Shown in pieces: positions 3,506 through 64,000 of a stretch of DNA of 64,000 nucleotides (its first letter is position 1; the number at the start of each line of letters is the position of its first letter). Both the position numbers and the translations under genes were made by a program. Under the pieces are notes generated by a model, which saw only the letters and a list, made by a program, of their open reading frames with translations, made no database searches and was not told the origin of the DNA. Source of the DNA: an uncultured cyanobacterium (GTDB lineage Bacteria; Cyanobacteriota; Cyanobacteriia; CACIAM-69d); the NCBI GenBank assembly GCA_937883785.1, contig CALGDE010000133.1, forward strand, positions 1 to 64,000, written 5' to 3'.

Positions 3506-4438
3506 ATGTGGGATGGACTAACCCGATGGGGTTACCTATGGCAGGAAACCTGGCGGGGATTTCGCCGGGGAGGCTGGATGAATTGGGCGGCGGTGGCCAC
3601 GGTGGCCGTGTCGTTGTTTTTATTGGGTACCAGTTTGCAAGCGTCGTGGCACCTGGAGCGGTTGCTGAATCAGTTTGGCAGTCAGCTAGAGATTTCTGTG
3701 TATGTGCAGCCCCAGGTGGACCCGGCTCCGGTGCAAGCGGCAGTGGAAGCCTTGCCGGAGGTGGCTTCAGTGACCCTGGTATCAAAGGGTGATGCCTGGG
3801 AAGGGTTGGTGAAGGAGCTGGGCATTTCTAATATTGAGGTGGCGACCCAGCAGCTGGAGGGAAATCCGTTGCTGGATGAGCTGAAGGTAAAAGTGACCTC
3901 CCCTGCGGTGGCTCCTGAGGTGGCAGCCCAGGTGGAAAACATTGCTGGCGTGGAGGATACCCGCTATGTGGCGGAGGTGGTAACGCGCCTGCGGGAGGTG
4001 AATGAGCTGTTGACCTGGGTTGGGTTGGGGGCGATCGCCCTGGTGATTTCGGCGGCGGTGGCGACGACGATGACCACTATTCGACTGGTGGTGGCAGCCC
4101 GCAGTCAGGAAATTGAAATTATGCGGCTGGTGGGGGCTACACGGGGGTGGATTTATCTCCCATTTTTGATGCAGGGGGCCGTGTTTGGACTCCAGGGGGG
4201 CGTTATTGCCTGGGGGGCGATCGCCGTAGTGCAACAAATTTTGCGGTCTGTGCTCAGCAGTCAGCCCAGCTTTTTGCAGTTTCTGGCGCGGGAATTACCC
4301 CTTACCTCCCGTGAAACGTTGTTATTGCTCATTGTGCTGCTGATTTTCGGCACGGGGGTGGGGCTGATTGCCAGTGCCCTGGCGGTGCGCCGAACTAAGG
4401 CAGAGGTCGACAGCGACCAGGTGGCTTGGACCATTTAG
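3506..4438 (+). CDS. ftsX: Cell division protein FtsX
   Basis: FtsX is the membrane subunit of the FtsEX ABC-type complex, which couples cell division to septal peptidoglycan hydrolase activation. The 310-residue product has the family layout: a cytoplasmic N-terminus, a first transmembrane helix at about residues 27-47, a periplasmic domain starting LEISVYVQPQVD, and three C-terminal helices (about 170-192, 220-243 and 275-295). The cytoplasmic segment SQEIEIMRLVGATRGWI between helices 2 and 3 is the FtsX/MacB-type coupling motif. The ATPase partner ftsE is not adjacent. Confidence 0.93.
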   Translation: MWDGLTRWGYLWQETWRGFRRGGWMNWAAVATVAVSLFLLGTSLQASWHLERLLNQFGSQLEISVYVQPQVDPAPVQAAVEALPEVASVTLVSKGDAWEGLVKELGISNIEVATQQLEGNPLLDELKVKVTSPAVAPEVAAQVENIAGVEDTRYVAEVVTRLREVNELLTWVGLGAIALVISAAVATTMTTIRLVVAARSQEIEIMRLVGATRGWIYLPFLMQGAVFGLQGGVIAWGAIAVVQQILRSVLSSQPSFLQFLARELPLTSRETLLLLIVLLIFGTGVGLIASALAVRRTKAEVDSDQVAWTI

Positions 4439-4607
4439 AGTGATTTCGGCACGCTAAATTTGCCAAGATTTTTTGCCAAAGCTTATAGATCTACTAAAGG
4501 TTCCTAAAACGGCGAATCCCTCTGCCCTGTTACATTTGCCGCCATTGGGCACTGGAATTTGCTAGACCTAGATCACCTTTTAAACCATTTTTTAGAACGT
4601 AAGACAT

Positions 4608-5654
4608 ATGCCGGTACCCCAAGTGTTGTGTGTGGGTGAAATGTTATGGGATTGCTTGGGGGATTCCGCTGAGAATGGGGGGGCAAAAGATAAAGCTGAT
4701 TCGTCCAATGTGGGGTCTGCCGCCCCTGATCCCTCCAAAATAGAAAATTGGACGGCTTATCCTGGCGGCGCACCCGCTAACGTGGCGTGCGCGTTGCCAA
4801 AGTTAGGGGTGCAGTCGGCGTTAATTAGCTGTTTGGGGCAGGATGCTGCTGGCGATCGCCTCCTGAAAATTTTGCAGCAGGGGGGCGTCAATATCGACGG
4901 CATTCAGCGTCATCCCGCTCCCACCCGCGAAGTATACGTGGTGCGGGATGGGACGGGCGATCGCCAGTTTGTCGCCTTTGGTGCGGAGGGAAAGGGGGAG
5001 CAGGATACTACCGCCTTTGCCGATACCCAGCTATTGCCTGCCTCGGTGCCCCAGCCCCTATTTAGCTCGGCGAAATTTTTGACCCTGGGCACATTGGCAC
5101 TGGCCTATCCCAATAGCGGCAGGGCGATCGCCCACGCCCTCGACCTGGCGGACCAATATTATGTGCCGGTATTTTTGGACCTAAACTGGCGTCCGTTGTT
5201 TTGGCCCGACCCCAGTAAGGCCCAGCAAACCATTGCCCCAATCTTAGAGCGGGTGGACTTACTGAAGCTCTCTAAGGAAGAAGCTCTATGGATGTTTGCA
5301 ACCGATGATCCAGCGGCGATCGCCCAAAAGCTAGACCACTTAGAGGGGGTGATTATTACCGATGGTGCCAATGGCTGTCGCTACTGTTTAGGAGGACATA
5401 TGGGCGCTCATCCTGGCTTTAAAGCAGCGGTGGTGGACACCACGGGAGCGGGAGATGGATTTGTGGCGGGATTTCTGAGCCAGCTGCTCCAGGGAGGGCT
5501 CAAGACTTTGGACGATCCTAAGCGGGTGTATCGTATGGTGGTTTACGCCAGCGCCGTAGGAGCCTTAGTGACTCAAAAATCGGGGGCGATCGCCGCCCAA
5601 CCCAACCGCACTGAAGTGGAGAATTTCTTACGACAGCAGGGACTGATTGCCTAA
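4608..5654 (+). CDS. PfkB-family carbohydrate kinase, probably fructokinase
   Basis: The 348-residue product is a ribokinase/PfkB-family sugar kinase that uses ATP to phosphorylate a sugar, probably fructose. The first PfkB signature is GGAPANVACALPKLG near residue 50. The second is DTTGAGDGFVAGF near residue 275, where the Asp of GAGD is the catalytic base. The opening VLCVGEMLWDCLGD is typical of fructokinases. A low-complexity insert of about 25 residues (20-45, Ala/Asp/Ser-rich) separates the first strand from the GG motif. Substrate choice is inferred from overall resemblance; an adenosine- or ribokinase-like specificity is less likely. Confidence 0.85.
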   Translation: MPVPQVLCVGEMLWDCLGDSAENGGAKDKADSSNVGSAAPDPSKIENWTAYPGGAPANVACALPKLGVQSALISCLGQDAAGDRLLKILQQGGVNIDGIQRHPAPTREVYVVRDGTGDRQFVAFGAEGKGEQDTTAFADTQLLPASVPQPLFSSAKFLTLGTLALAYPNSGRAIAHALDLADQYYVPVFLDLNWRPLFWPDPSKAQQTIAPILERVDLLKLSKEEALWMFATDDPAAIAQKLDHLEGVIITDGANGCRYCLGGHMGAHPGFKAAVVDTTGAGDGFVAGFLSQLLQGGLKTLDDPKRVYRMVVYASAVGALVTQKSGAIAAQPNRTEVENFLRQQGLIA

Positions 5655-55970: not shown

Positions 55971-56032
55971 ATTTTTGATTGGACTTTTGTTTCCTTACTT
56001 ACACTCAGTTCTTAACTAAAAAGGGTTTAACC

Positions 56033-57031
56033 ATGGGCATTGTTAATTATCAAAATGACCAGCATCAAAACAATCGGCGGTGGAGCGTGCGCTGGCGATT
56101 GGGGGCGATCGCCCTGTTAATGGCCGGTATGGGGGCGATCGCCTCCTGCTCTGCCGACTCCACTGCCCCAACCGACTCGAATCCTCCCGCCGTCGAAGCC
56201 GCCGCCACTGAAACGGCCACTGAAGCCGCCGAAACCGCCAGCACCGGAGAAACGGACAACACCTCCGACATCAAAGTCATCGTTACCCTAACGTCCCTAA
56301 CCGCTGACCTGGTGCACACCCTCGACAAGGATAAGCTCGCCGGCATTCCCGGCAGTTCCCTGATGCGAGAGGACAGTCGCTTTGCTGGACTAGAGGTGGT
56401 TAGCGCAGGACGAGCGGAGCCCAACCTGGAAAAGATTGTGGCCCTAAAGCCAGATTTAGTAATTGGAGCCGCTGGATTTCACGACAAAACCTTAAATCGC
56501 TTGGAAGAGCTGGGGGTTAAAACCTTAGCTACGGACGTAAACGGCTGGGACGGTTTAAAAGCCCTAACCACGGATCTAGCTCAACAGATGGGCGCCGACC
56601 CCCAGCCCCTGTTGGGGCGCTACGATGCTTGCCTCGCCAAAGCGCCTGATTCTGCCCCCTCCGCCTTAATCTTGGTAAGCCGCCAGCCCCTGCTGTCCCC
56701 CAACAAAAACAGTTGGGCAGGAGACTTTCTATCTAAATTTAATGTGAAAAACTTAACGGCAGATTTACAGGGAAAAAGTCCCTTTGACGGCTACATCACC
56801 CTGTCAGAGGAGAAAGTTCTAACCTCTAACCCTGAGGCACTGCTGGTGGTGAACACTCAGGATAATTTATTGGCCCAGCTCAAAAAAGATGCGTTTTGGG
56901 GAAAATTAAAAGCCACCCAAACCGACGCTGTGCATACCTTTGACTACTTCGGCCTAATCAACCCCGGCAGCGTCGCCAGCATTGAAGCCACCTGTGACAA
57001 GCTCAGCCAATTACCAAGTTCTGACGGATAA
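56033..57031 (+). CDS. Periplasmic binding lipoprotein for an iron complex, heme or cobalamin
   Basis: The 332-residue product has a signal with hydrophobic core at about 23-36 and lipobox IASC (Cys39). A Thr/Ala/Glu-rich linker follows. The binding fold is of the BtuF/FhuD/HmuT class, with VIVTLTSLTADLVHTL, LEKIVALKPDLVIGA and the C-terminal half starting APSALILVSRQPLLSP. Its place next to a TonB-dependent receptor and tonB suggests that it hands over the same ligand in the periplasm. The permease and ATPase genes are not in the window. I chose the ATG at 56033. Confidence 0.88.
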   Translation: MGIVNYQNDQHQNNRRWSVRWRLGAIALLMAGMGAIASCSADSTAPTDSNPPAVEAAATETATEAAETASTGETDNTSDIKVIVTLTSLTADLVHTLDKDKLAGIPGSSLMREDSRFAGLEVVSAGRAEPNLEKIVALKPDLVIGAAGFHDKTLNRLEELGVKTLATDVNGWDGLKALTTDLAQQMGADPQPLLGRYDACLAKAPDSAPSALILVSRQPLLSPNKNSWAGDFLSKFNVKNLTADLQGKSPFDGYITLSEEKVLTSNPEALLVVNTQDNLLAQLKKDAFWGKLKATQTDAVHTFDYFGLINPGSVASIEATCDKLSQLPSSDG

Positions 57032-57204
57032 CGGGTAAATTGATCGCCACTGGGGACGGTTTTCTGAACCCCGGTGGTGTGGATTCCTCGGTAAACGTCC
57101 ACAGTGAGTCCCTTGGCAATATGGGAAATATTTTGCAAGCGTTTTGCACGGGGCAATCGTGCGAAAACGTCGCAGATTGATGAAATTTACGCAGGACTTT
57201 GGCA

Positions 57205-58176
57205 ATGACCGGATATTTGGAAACAACCGCCGACTTTTATCGGGAAGTGGCCGTAACCCCAGAAGTGGGGCTGTGTTGTGTACAGGGAGGATCATTAAAG
57301 CTGCCTGGGCTTAATGTTCCTGACCGCATGAACGAAATGAACTACGGCTGTGGCACAACGGTGCAGCCTCAGGAGCTGGTGGATGAGCCGACGGTGATGT
57401 ACGTGGGCGTGGGTGGCGGTTTGGAAGCTCTCCAGTTTGCTTACTTTTCCCGGCGTCCCGGCGCGGTCATTGCGGTGGAGCCCGTGGCAGAAATGCGTCA
57501 GGCAGCGCGCGAAAACCTGGAAGAGGCGGCGCGGCTTAATGACTGGTTTGACACCAGCTTTGTGGAGATCCGTGAGGGGGGAGCTTTTGATTTGCCTGCC
57601 GATGACGGAATCGCCGGCGTTTATGCCCAAAATTGCCTGTTCAATATTTTTGAGCCTGCAGATTTACAAAAAGCCCTGGAGGAAGCCCACCGTGTGCTCC
57701 AGCCTCGCGGTCGACTGATGATGAGTGATCCGATCGCCGCCCGCCCCATTCCTGCCCACCTGCAGGCTGACGAGCGGCTGCGAGCCATGTGCTTATCCGG
57801 GGCACAAACCTATGAAAGGTATGTGGGCGCACTGGTGGACGTGGGATTTGGCCAGGTGGAAATTCGAGCGCGACGCCCCTACCGCATGCTAGATAAGGTT
57901 ACCTATAACCTGGACGAAGACTTGTTGCTAGAAAGCCTCGATAGTGTAGCGTACAAGGTTCCTGTTGCCCCTGATGGAGCGTGTATTTTCACTGGACGCA
58001 CTGCCATTTACACCGGATCCGAGCCCCTGCTAAACGATGGCAAAGGCCATACCTTGCCTAAGGGGATTCCTACCGGTGTTTGCGACAAGACCGCCAGCGC
58101 TTTGGCGAGCACGGATCCCGATACGGTGTTAATTACCCCTCCCACCTGGCACTACCAGGGAGATGGTTGCTGCTAA
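57205..58176 (+). CDS. arsM: Arsenosugar-type arsenite methyltransferase ArsM
   Basis: ArsM transfers methyl groups from S-adenosylmethionine to arsenite, for detoxification and for synthesis of arsenosugars. The 323-residue product has the binding motif VMYVGVGGGLEALQFAYF, the cysteines VGLCCVQGG, NYGCGTT and CLFNIF, AMCLSGAQTYERYV, and an ending in GDGCC. I recognise the arsenosugar-type family from VGLCC, MNYGCGTTV and the C-terminal CC. The start is the ATG at 57205. The radical SAM partner ArsS, often adjacent, is not present here. A GC-rich hairpin follows the stop. Confidence 0.85.
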   Translation: MTGYLETTADFYREVAVTPEVGLCCVQGGSLKLPGLNVPDRMNEMNYGCGTTVQPQELVDEPTVMYVGVGGGLEALQFAYFSRRPGAVIAVEPVAEMRQAARENLEEAARLNDWFDTSFVEIREGGAFDLPADDGIAGVYAQNCLFNIFEPADLQKALEEAHRVLQPRGRLMMSDPIAARPIPAHLQADERLRAMCLSGAQTYERYVGALVDVGFGQVEIRARRPYRMLDKVTYNLDEDLLLESLDSVAYKVPVAPDGACIFTGRTAIYTGSEPLLNDGKGHTLPKGIPTGVCDKTASALASTDPDTVLITPPTWHYQGDGCC

Positions 58177-61200: not shown

Positions 61201-61755
61201 TCAATGATTTAAAAGTCCGCTGACGTAACGCTGTAAAGCAATTTTCTGCTGCTTAGAGTCAAGTGGCTGGGATTGGATCAACGTATCCAAACTGATGCCA
61301 TTGACCAGTGCTAGCAGCACATTGGCTTCGATCGCCGGATCAATATCAGAGCGAATAATCTGCTGTTTTTGCAGTGCTGCTAATTCTTGGATAACGACTT
61401 TCCGCAGCTCCCCCGCACTGTGTCGATGCTCCACCATTAAGTCTTGCCGTCCTACGGCATAGCCCAGAAACGCCACCCACACCTGCAAGATTTCTTGCCG
61501 CGTCTGATCCAGCGGTAAAAACGACAACAGCATGGCCACCAACCGGTCCACCCCTGACAAGTTAGTGATCGCGACGTCCATTTGCCCCCGCAACCGCTCC
61601 GTTACCTGATGCAGGGCGAATAAAATCAACTCTTGCTTATTGCGAAAATAGTGGGTGACCACGCCTGTGGTGCAGTCCATCTCCTGGGCGATCGCCCGCA
61701 TGCTGGCGCGATCTAACCCCTCCCGAGCAATTACTCGCCAAGCGGCTTCGGACAC
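61201..61755 (-). CDS. TetR-family transcriptional regulator
   Basis: The product is 184 residues from GTG 61755. The DNA-binding helices are IAREGLDRASMRAIAQEMDC and TTGVVTHYFRNKQELILFAL, typical of the TetR/AcrR family. The C-terminal helical ligand-binding domain fills the rest. The GTG cuts into helix 1: in-frame codons upstream continue the usual TetR start (QNDRRLEVSEAAWRVIA) up to a stop, but contain no ATG, GTG or TTG. A rare start (ATT or ATC) or a sequence change is possible. It is divergent from three genes, with a perfect inverted repeat between. Confidence 0.85.
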   Translation of the reverse strand: MSEAAWRVIAREGLDRASMRAIAQEMDCTTGVVTHYFRNKQELILFALHQVTERLRGQMDVAITNLSGVDRLVAMLLSFLPLDQTRQEILQVWVAFLGYAVGRQDLMVEHRHSAGELRKVVIQELAALQKQQIIRSDIDPAIEANVLLALVNGISLDTLIQSQPLDSKQQKIALQRYVSGLLNH

Positions 61756-61859
61756 CTCAAGGCGTCGATCATTTTGAGCGGCGATATTTGCTGCCTCTAA
61801 ATACTGTCGTTTGAAGATACTGTCGCTGGAAGCAATTTCGAACTTCTATGGACAGTTTA

Positions 61860-61900
61860 TCACAACAGTTGTTATATTCATTGCATAACAACTGTTGTGA
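61860..61900. promoter_or_regulatory. TetR-type operator: perfect 16-bp inverted repeat with 9-bp spacer
   Basis: TCACAACAGTTGTTAT and ATAACAACTGTTGTGA are exact inverted copies. Each arm is itself a near-palindrome (ACAAC-A-GTTGT), so the site offers two dyads to two dimers. The right arm runs into the GAGG ribosome-binding site of the 61911 gene. The position and form are as expected for the divergent TetR-family regulator. Confidence 0.85.
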
Positions 61901-61910
61901 GGTAGTGCCT

Positions 61911-62510
61911 ATGCAGTTCAGTGCTTGGCATCGTTCGGCATTTTCGCCGTCGCAAAAGCCTGGGTGGCTAGATCGACTAATCGGTTCGGGGGCGACTTCG
62001 GCGGAGTTGGCGGTGCAGTTTATTCCTGCTTTCGGGGCGGCGATCGCGGCTCCGGTTTATGGGGCCACGCTGGCAATGGATTGGAGTTCTTGGCAGCTAG
62101 GGGCGATCGCGCTGTTGGGGTTTGACATTGTGGGAGGGGTGCTGACTAACGCCACGTCAGCGGCTAAAGGTTGGTATCACCGTCCGGGTCAACGGGCGCG
62201 GCATCATTTTGGGTTCGTGGCGTTGCACCTTTTCCACATTGGGCTGGTGTCGCTGTTGTTTCGTGGCGCAGACGTGTTCTTTTTCGTTGGGGTGTCGAGT
62301 TTTTTGCTCGGGGCGGCGGCGTTGATTTTGGCCAGTCCTTTGTATTTGCAACGACCGATCGCCTTCGGGATGTTCGGCTTGGCGCTGCTGGGCGATCGCT
62401 ATTTCCTAACGCCAACGCCGGGATTGGAGTGGTTTTTGCCGCTGTTCTTCCTAAAGCTTTTGGTGAGTCATTTGCTGAAGGAAACGGCGTATAAACCGGG
62501 CGATCGCTAA
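61911..62510 (+). CDS. Multi-helix membrane protein, unknown function
   Basis: The 199-residue product has about six hydrophobic helices (about 28-48, 58-78, 98-118, 122-142, 150-165, 172-188) and a mid-sequence RARHHFGFVALHLFHIG motif with several His. I recognise no family. The start is the ATG at 61911, eight bases after GAGG, which lies in the operator. It is the first gene under the probable control of the TetR-type regulator. Confidence 0.7.
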   Translation: MQFSAWHRSAFSPSQKPGWLDRLIGSGATSAELAVQFIPAFGAAIAAPVYGATLAMDWSSWQLGAIALLGFDIVGGVLTNATSAAKGWYHRPGQRARHHFGFVALHLFHIGLVSLLFRGADVFFFVGVSSFLLGAAALILASPLYLQRPIAFGMFGLALLGDRYFLTPTPGLEWFLPLFFLKLLVSHLLKETAYKPGDR

Positions 62511-62590: not shown

Positions 62591-63127
62591 ATGGCTATGT
62601 CCCTTAAGATTCAACACTGGACCGCTATTTTGTTGGGAGTTTCGTCGGTGTCCCTGAGTGTATTGGTGCCTGGCGGCCCCATCGAAACTCGCAGCTTTGC
62701 CCATATCAACCCCTTAACGTTGGGGGTATTCAATACGTTTCTGACCATTTTGGGACCGGGCAGTTTGCTGTTGGCTTATTTCGTTTGGAAATCGGAGCGT
62801 TGGGCGCTGTGGGGGTCGGCATTGTGCGGCTTATCTTTCTTCGGCGTTTATGGTTTGGATTTGGCTCAAATCTTTCCCGTTTCGCCCGATGCGATGCCGC
62901 TAGCTTTGTTCGCGATCGAGGTGTGGGGAACAGTGCTGGCATTTCCTTTAATGGCAATGTCACTCCAGGCACTGAGGGACATTAGCCCGATCGCGATCGC
63001 CACCCCTTCCAATGCCAGCGCTTTGCTTCTGGATGCACGCTGGTCTCAGGTACTGGTGACCCTCTGTCTAGGACTGGTAGCGCTGGGAATTATTGTCTTT
63101 GCAACGCAATCAGCGATGGGGCTTTAG
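62591..63127 (+). CDS. Four- or five-helix membrane protein, unknown function
   Basis: The 178-residue product has hydrophobic helices at about 10-30, 43-65, 70-92, 105-128 and 152-172. I recognise no motif. The ATG at 62591 follows AAGGAG by four bases; ATG 62597 would also fit. It follows the previous membrane-protein gene by 80 bases on the same strand and precedes a saccharopine-dehydrogenase-like gene by 79, so the three may form an operon. Confidence 0.65.
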   Translation: MAMSLKIQHWTAILLGVSSVSLSVLVPGGPIETRSFAHINPLTLGVFNTFLTILGPGSLLLAYFVWKSERWALWGSALCGLSFFGVYGLDLAQIFPVSPDAMPLALFAIEVWGTVLAFPLMAMSLQALRDISPIAIATPSNASALLLDARWSQVLVTLCLGLVALGIIVFATQSAMGL

Positions 63128-63206: not shown

Positions 63207-64000
63207 GTGAAGATGCAAGATGCCGTTTTAATTGCTGGAGGCTATGGAGTTGTTGGTCGCCAGGTTGCAGCTTTGATTCGCCAGCGCCACCCTCAACTGT
63301 CGCTAGTTATTGCTGGACGAAGCCTGGAAAAAGCTGATGCACTGGCTCGGGAGCTGGGGCACGCTCAAGGATTCCGGCTGGATGTGGATCGTCCAGATCC
63401 GCTACAGGGGGTGCGATTTCGTGCAGTGGTTGCGGCGGTTAATGATCCAGAGGATTATCTACTGTGGGATGCGGTGCAACATAGCATTCCCTACATGGAC
63501 ATTACCCGATGGCCGGAACGACTGCGGGCGTCAGCGGCGGGACTTGTGGGAAAACCTTTAAAAGCGCCAGTGCTATTTGCTTCTGGTTGGATGGGGGGCG
63601 TTGCTTCGATCGCGACGGTGGCGATCGCCCGAACTCTGCTGAACGTGGAACGCATTGACATCAGCGTTTTATTCTCGATGCAGGATAAGTCGGGACCCAA
63701 CTCCGTTGAATATATGGACCGTTTGGCAACGCCTTTTGCAACGATGATCGACGGTCAGTTGATACAGGTGAAGCCCTTCACTGATCCACGTACGGTGACC
63801 TTTCCAAGGGGATACACCACGCCGGTCTACCGCTTTGACACTCCGGATCAGCTGACGTTGCCACAAACCACTGGAGCCAGGACGGTTGCTACCCGTATCG
63901 CCTTTGATGACGGGCTAGCAACGGGACTTCTTCGATTTTTAATCCGCTCTGGTCTCTGGACGCTGATCAGTGGCGATCGCTTCACGGGACTACGGCGATC
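63207..64000 (+). CDS. Saccharopine dehydrogenase-like NAD(P)-binding protein, 3' end outside window
   Basis: The frame is open from GTG 63207 to the window end (at least 264 residues). The N-terminus is a Rossmann fold: AVLIAGGYGVVGRQVAALI, then LVIAGRSLEKADALAREL. AVVAAVNDPEDYLLWDAV and the start of a mixed C-terminal domain follow (YMDITRWPERL, LFASGWMGGVASI). This matches saccharopine dehydrogenase-like oxidoreductases, which act on diverse substrates. GGAGGA lies eight bases before the GTG. The C-terminus is cut by the window edge, so no substrate can be proposed. Confidence 0.85.
   Translation, partial: MKMQDAVLIAGGYGVVGRQVAALIRQRHPQLSLVIAGRSLEKADALARELGHAQGFRLDVDRPDPLQGVRFRAVVAAVNDPEDYLLWDAVQHSIPYMDITRWPERLRASAAGLVGKPLKAPVLFASGWMGGVASIATVAIARTLLNVERIDISVLFSMQDKSGPNSVEYMDRLATPFATMIDGQLIQVKPFTDPRTVTFPRGYTTPVYRFDTPDQLTLPQTTGARTVATRIAFDDGLATGLLRFLIRSGLWTLISGDRFTGLRR

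Follow-up and report, generated by a model that had tools for sequence, protein, structure and literature searches.

Paired predicted operators of a TetR-family regulator before a membrane-protein gene in an uncultured cyanobacterium

Analysis of a 64,000-nt contig stretch (hereafter the window, meaning that whole stretch) has revealed a paired site between a TetR-family regulator gene and a divergently oriented membrane-protein gene, mem1, and this repeat is almost certainly the predicted operator of the adjacent regulator gene. The pair has been kept beside the members of one TetR subfamily, at a near-fixed position relative to the -35 element, with different genes behind it in different loci. 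We consider it probable, judging from these comparisons, that the window encodes a ligand-released and probably autoregulated TetR repressor with paired operators, controlling a unit of detoxification type; the regulatory logic predicted in this way is well supported. The switch is of a known kind and represents a well-defined new case, with the families of mem1 and its neighbour mem2 as its most interesting cargo.

Paired site, promoter and regulator gene in the window

The features of the locus are as follows.
61201-61785, minus strand: TetR-family regulator gene (tetR), TetR_N plus a TetR_C_6/BetI-type C-terminus (Pfam matches, start-codon comparison)
61849-61878, plus strand: predicted sigma-70 promoter of mem1 (promoter scan, L063 850-879, and TTGACA conservation in relatives)
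61860-61900, no strand: perfect 16-bp inverted repeat as a whole, arms plus 9-bp spacer (complementarity and shuffles)
61862-61875, no strand: left predicted operator, 14-mer ACAACAGTTGTTAT, set between the -35 and -10 elements of mem1 and overlapping the latter
61885-61898, no strand: right predicted operator, inverted copy ATAACAACTGTTGT, adjoining the Shine-Dalgarno sequence
61899-61902, plus strand: Shine-Dalgarno sequence GAGG of mem1 (read from the sequence; kept in most mem1 loci)
61911-62510, plus strand: mem1, 199-residue membrane protein with 5-6 predicted helices, the constant partner of this regulator clade
62597-63127, plus strand: mem2, 176-residue membrane protein with 5 predicted helices, assigned to no family
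63213-64000, continuing to 64346 of the contig, plus strand: saccharopine-dehydrogenase-like NAD(P)-binding protein (Pfam Sacchrp_dh_NADP, below cut-off)

The initial annotation had described a perfect 16-bp inverted repeat lying between a TetR-type regulator and membrane-protein genes, and both its exact position and its setting were confirmed. The arms at 61860-61875 (TCACAACAGTTGTTAT) and 61885-61900 (ATAACAACTGTTGTGA) show 100% complementarity along their 16 nt and are separated by 9 nt; the window contains a single perfect 16-nt inverted repeat with a loop of up to 20 nt, and none of 40 first-order Markov shuffles produced one. The repeat occupies an intergenic distance of ~130 bp between tetR and mem1, with the centres of the two predicted operators 23 bp apart. 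The further claim that each arm is itself a dyad stood in part: ACAAC-N-GTTGT within each arm accounts for 2 matches in the window vs. 0.02 expected, but the axis in relatives is an even one (ATAACA-GT-TGTTAT). Compared with the commonest form, both arms in the window have C in place of T at position 2, and the ACAAC-A-GTTGT dyad is seen here because of this replacement; as it is present only where position 2 is C, we rejected the odd-axis dyad as the operator and regard it as a lineage variant. Exact matches to the 14-mer AYAACARYTGTTRT in the 4.84-Mb genome are confined to these two sites, and looser matches were fewer than for the reversed control (108 vs. 228); with 0 further exact sites, we rejected the idea that the window's organism has a genome-wide regulon. 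A literature search for the 14-mer found no paper.

The predicted mem1 promoter comprises a -35 element TGGACA (61849-61854), an 18-bp spacer and an extended -10 element TATATT (61873-61878) preceded by TG. Relatives mostly have TTGACA where the window has TGGACA, the weaker of the two, and the promoter call rests on this conservation because the scan yielded sites in numbers no higher than in shuffles. The spacer between these elements is taken up by the left arm, which extends into the -10. With the end of the predicted -10 at 61878, transcription of mem1 is expected to begin near 61885, where the right arm is located, and the transcript to include that arm only. That the right arm runs into the ribosome-binding site, as first proposed, is borne out, since it ends in the GA of GAGG and so shares the first two bases of a Shine-Dalgarno sequence whose distance to the ATG at 61911 is 8 nt; the overlap with the promoter holds as well.

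The regulator matches PF00440 at 41.5 bits (cut-off 24) and PF13977 at 80.5 bits (cut-off 27). Homology starts at about 61776, and no ATG, GTG or TTG is found at the conserved start position in the window, which has ATC (61785-61783) behind AGAGG; the first conventional start is GTG at 61755, inside helix 1. Nearly all of the 57 loci compared have ATG or GTG a few codons upstream of a conserved RR. The window's regulator may thus use a rare start codon, be weakly expressed or be affected by an assembly error, and the intact paired site argues against a long-standing loss. The leader of the regulator gene also contains a 16-bp near-perfect tandem duplication at 61801-61832 (ATACTGTCGTTTGAAG / ATACTGTCGCTGGAAG), without which the reading frame upstream of the regulator would change.

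Conservation of the site, target cassettes and the membrane proteins

A search of other genomes for the site beside TetR genes and the same membrane protein had been proposed at the outset, with absence from orthologous loci named as the outcome that would count against the operator reading. This absence was looked for and is not the case. With mem1 alone as bait, yielding 17 loci in named genomes and matches in 25/390 genomes of the class, the paired site was found between a divergent TetR gene and mem1 in all 27 non-redundant mem1-found loci with a TetR gene (27/27), including one Lysobacterales and one Binatia metagenome-assembled genome (MAG); the predicted operator reading thus agrees with every related TetR-bearing locus examined. 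The conserved unit is the 14-mer ATAACAGTTGTTAT plus its inverted copy, with the family consensus A[T/C]AACA-GT-TGTTAT. Centre-to-centre spacing is usually 21-24 bp among mem1 loci (once 27) and ranges over 21-34 bp, with a mode of 23, among the 57 loci. TTGACA is found 7 nt 5' of the left copy in nearly all mem1 loci, and GAGG directly 3' of the right copy in most; across the 57 loci, TTGAC lies at a near-fixed distance 5' of the left arm in 54. Most operator columns carry ~2 bits, vs. mostly 0.05-0.3 bits for the leader columns between the Shine-Dalgarno sequence and the gene in mem1 loci.

Searching for the paired pattern alone returned one place in each of 32/390 genomes, with 0/390 for the reversed control. 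About half of these 32 matches were loci without mem1, and the TetR protein beside each of them is 45-52% identical to the window's regulator. A search with a regulator profile (A3) gave 49 matches in 43 genomes, of which 48 were examined, those without the exact pattern included (the one left out, G132:C7, is a broken fragment); the paired site was present at 48/48, with 0-4 changes over 28 positions. The operator pattern was the route to fifteen of the 57 loci (L093-L107), which are therefore not independent support for operator conservation, and several others are close kin (four Moorena). Independent support comes from the mem1-based set and from profile matches L138-L152, the profile itself having been built partly from operator-found members.

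The recognition helix [ST]TGVVTH[YH]F is found in 54/57 regulators, and median identities relative to the window's protein are 75-87% for the DNA-binding part vs. 35-60% for the ligand part. Position 2 has the identical base in both arms in 46/57 loci, and position 6 is G in both arms of L144 and L152; after correction for the tree, 1.6 pairs of arm changes agree and 0 disagree, contrasts too few for significance. Behind this one TetR subfamily we found three types of cassette: mem1 with or without mem2 and the saccharopine-dehydrogenase-like gene, a small multidrug resistance (SMR) efflux protein with a glutathione S-transferase (GST), and a GNAT acetyltransferase. In loci without mem1, the TetR gene diverges from a gene for an SMR protein followed by GST, or from a GNAT gene, as assigned by Pfam; a recognised cassette is absent in four loci (L100, L103, L140 and L141), two of which end at a contig edge. 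In the regulator tree the clades follow the cassettes, with 2 cassette changes vs. 22 expected in shuffles, and the regulators of the mem1 group form one clade with support of 100/100. As read from the shared helix and operator together with the two cassette changes on this tree, a single combination of regulator and operator has persisted through rare exchanges of its target cassette.

Several loci depart from the common arrangement. Genome G120 has mem1 with the paired site and only a remnant of the regulator (L153, 3754-4441); a separate contig of this genome carries an intact regulator next to SMR and GST (L152, 3522-5422), one of the two loci with G at position 6 of both arms. In genome G183 (L067, 4672-6791), mem1 is fragmented around a tandem repeat holding two copies of a 143-residue ORF, and the regulator and paired site are retained despite the broken mem1.

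The initial annotation had described the genes beside the site as a three-gene unit, but this unit is not a fixed one: the core is tetR-mem1, roughly half of the mem1 loci also have mem2, and a few have the third gene, which lies directly 3' of mem2 in the window, L009 and L069 and 1.3 kb behind it in L002. The third gene scores 23.2-23.3 bits against PF03435 (cut-off 25.1). No relatives of mem1 or mem2 were found in Pfam, NCBIfam or PDB sequences, and neither matches PF00893 (Multi_Drug_Res), which the SMR proteins of the sister loci do match. Foldseek comparison of their models with the PDB returned nothing significant (best E >2 for mem1 and >0.1 for mem2), at a mean pLDDT of 79.5 for mem1 and 65.2 for mem2, the latter being a model of low confidence. 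Conserved polar or charged residues lie among the helices of both proteins; those invariant in mem1 (E32, Q36, D72, T79-N80, K86, R91, H106, D121, Q147-R148, E173, K182, H187 and E191) would fit an enzyme or transporter better than a structural protein. A search for mem1 on plasmids gave no match. The distribution of mem1 is patchy, covering 25/390 genomes, 1/39 nearest relatives, and the Lysobacterales and Binatia MAGs, and is consistent with horizontal transfer, the spread outside cyanobacteria resting on these two MAG loci.

Other genes near mem1 loci were noted in passing. The flanks of L013 look proteobacterial by eye, with cytochrome bd-, purD- and moaA-like ORFs. L011 has an ORF of anthrone-oxygenase type (PF08592, Pfam-checked) at 4406-4909, and L069 a small membrane ORF of similar look at 754-1335; together with ORFs of NAD(P)-binding and monooxygenase-like type, such genes lie close to some mem1 loci and may mark detoxification islands. 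In the window, the ORF at 57199-58176 is methyltransferase-like, with CC near its N-terminus and a GDGCC end, and by eye resembles an arsenite methyltransferase; the preceding ORF (55979-57031) resembles, by eye, a substrate-binding lipoprotein of an uptake system.

Predicted mechanism and rival explanations

By analogy with the TetR family, we postulate that one repressor dimer would bind each 14-bp site. The left dimer would sit between the -35 and -10 elements of mem1 and thereby occlude the promoter, and in most relatives the left site also overlaps a TATGAT-like -10 element facing the regulator gene (the reverse complement of TATCATAAC), which would provide for autoregulation. The right dimer would cover the transcript start and the edge of the Shine-Dalgarno sequence, so that mem1 and the genes downstream would be off. 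A small hydrophobic or electrophilic ligand, bound by the BetI-type C-terminal domain, would then release the repressor and switch the cassette on, giving in the window mem1, mem2 and the saccharopine-dehydrogenase-like reductase and at sister loci SMR plus GST or GNAT.

That the inverted repeat might act not as protein-binding DNA but as an RNA hairpin, serving mem1 as an attenuator or blocking its translation, draws on the folding of both arms to -22.4 kcal/mol (z = -4.2) and on the contact of the right arm with the Shine-Dalgarno sequence; the predicted mem1 transcript, however, carries the right arm only, the distance between the arms varies as given above, and each arm is itself a near-invariant dyad, which a stem would not need. 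In addition, both sites are retained in L013, L141, L146 and L149 but as direct repeats, which can no longer form the long hairpin. With the predicted transcript start, variable spacing and direct-orientation loci all against it, we rejected a hairpin as the main function and regard this explanation as very improbable. We think it equally improbable that the sites serve another regulator, with the TetR gene a mere neighbour. Such a view could appeal to the lack of a normal start codon in the window's TetR gene and to L012 (Symploca), where the paired site precedes mem1 and a different, unrelated ORF takes the TetR position, but this locus and the TetR remnant in G120 look like secondary losses. 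The site accompanies all examined members of the TetR subfamily whatever the cassette, and at L070/L054, where a mem1 relative lies in a fully readable neighbourhood without a TetR gene, the paired site is missing too.

A third explanation accepts the switch and takes mem1 and mem2 to be housekeeping or envelope-lipid proteins in membrane homeostasis, with a lipid or fatty acid as ligand. Fatty acids are often sensed by TetR regulators, and the polar and charged residues among the helices of both proteins, together with the lack of any efflux-family match, would suit such a role. The SMR plus GST or GNAT enzymes under the same switch at sister loci speak against it, as does the patchy distribution of mem1, which is unlike that of housekeeping genes, and we hold this explanation to be rather unlikely. 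Because sister regulators control SMR efflux with GST or an acetyltransferase, detoxification is the likeliest role for mem1 and mem2, as guilt by association suggests. Tentatively, and with more doubt than confidence, we speculate that mem1 and mem2 are two unrecognised families forming a new machinery for detoxification, induced by chemicals and working by efflux or as a membrane-bound enzyme, and that their cassette is interchangeable with the other two, all three being served by one horizontally spreading switch of TetR and paired operators that answers one compound class in cyanobacterial communities.

The regulator subfamily gains a predicted operator that can be read from a genome as two copies of its consensus, and two unannotated membrane protein families become tied to known detoxification genes via a common switch. 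A ligand found for any of the cassette types would suggest the inducer, and hence the substrate class, for the other two. In cyanobacteria the operator pair might also be put to use as a tightly controlled inducible promoter.

Relation to known systems

The C-terminal domain of the window's regulator, scoring above the PF13977 cut-off, resembles that of BetI, the choline-responsive TetR regulator (TIGR03384/TetR_C_6). By its profile score and its neighbours the regulator is nonetheless not BetI, because it reaches 69.8 bits on the TIGR03384 equivalog vs. a cut-off of 201.3 and no bet genes were seen adjacent to it, its neighbours being mem1, mem2 and the saccharopine-dehydrogenase-like gene. 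PrqR and PfsR of Synechocystis are likewise cyanobacterial members of the TetR family, both described as autoregulated (PMC4092027); their descriptions set them apart, with regulons of oxidative stress and iron.

The initial view that the unit resembles no known system has to be given up, as it shares its layout with Tn10 tetR/tetA, and elsewhere this regulator-operator module stands before SMR plus GST or GNAT. In Tn10 tet, a TetR dimer binds each of two 15-bp palindromic operators (tetO1 and tetO2) that overlap divergent promoters, and is set free by the ligand (PMC3511530, PMC3037858). The two systems share a divergent regulator and membrane-protein gene with two intergenic palindromes of 14-15 bp over the promoters, and the window shows the mark of a Tn10-type switch, a divergent intergenic region with two predicted operators that overlap the promoter of the target. 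In contrast to Tn10 tet, the window has another operator sequence and another TetR subfamily (with the BetI-type C-terminus), its target has no detected resemblance to a known pump, and its second site adjoins the Shine-Dalgarno sequence. TetR genes that diverge from a neighbour within 200 bp usually regulate or repress that neighbour, and several of the divergent Streptomyces regulators have at least two palindromic operators and repress divergent pump or enzyme genes (PMC3511530). The divergent target within 200 bp is a feature the window has in common with ActR, SGR3979, SCO3367 and others of these (PMC3511530). For each of these Streptomyces regulators there is a separate operator, whereas the subfamily described here retains one operator throughout and differs in the target cassette.
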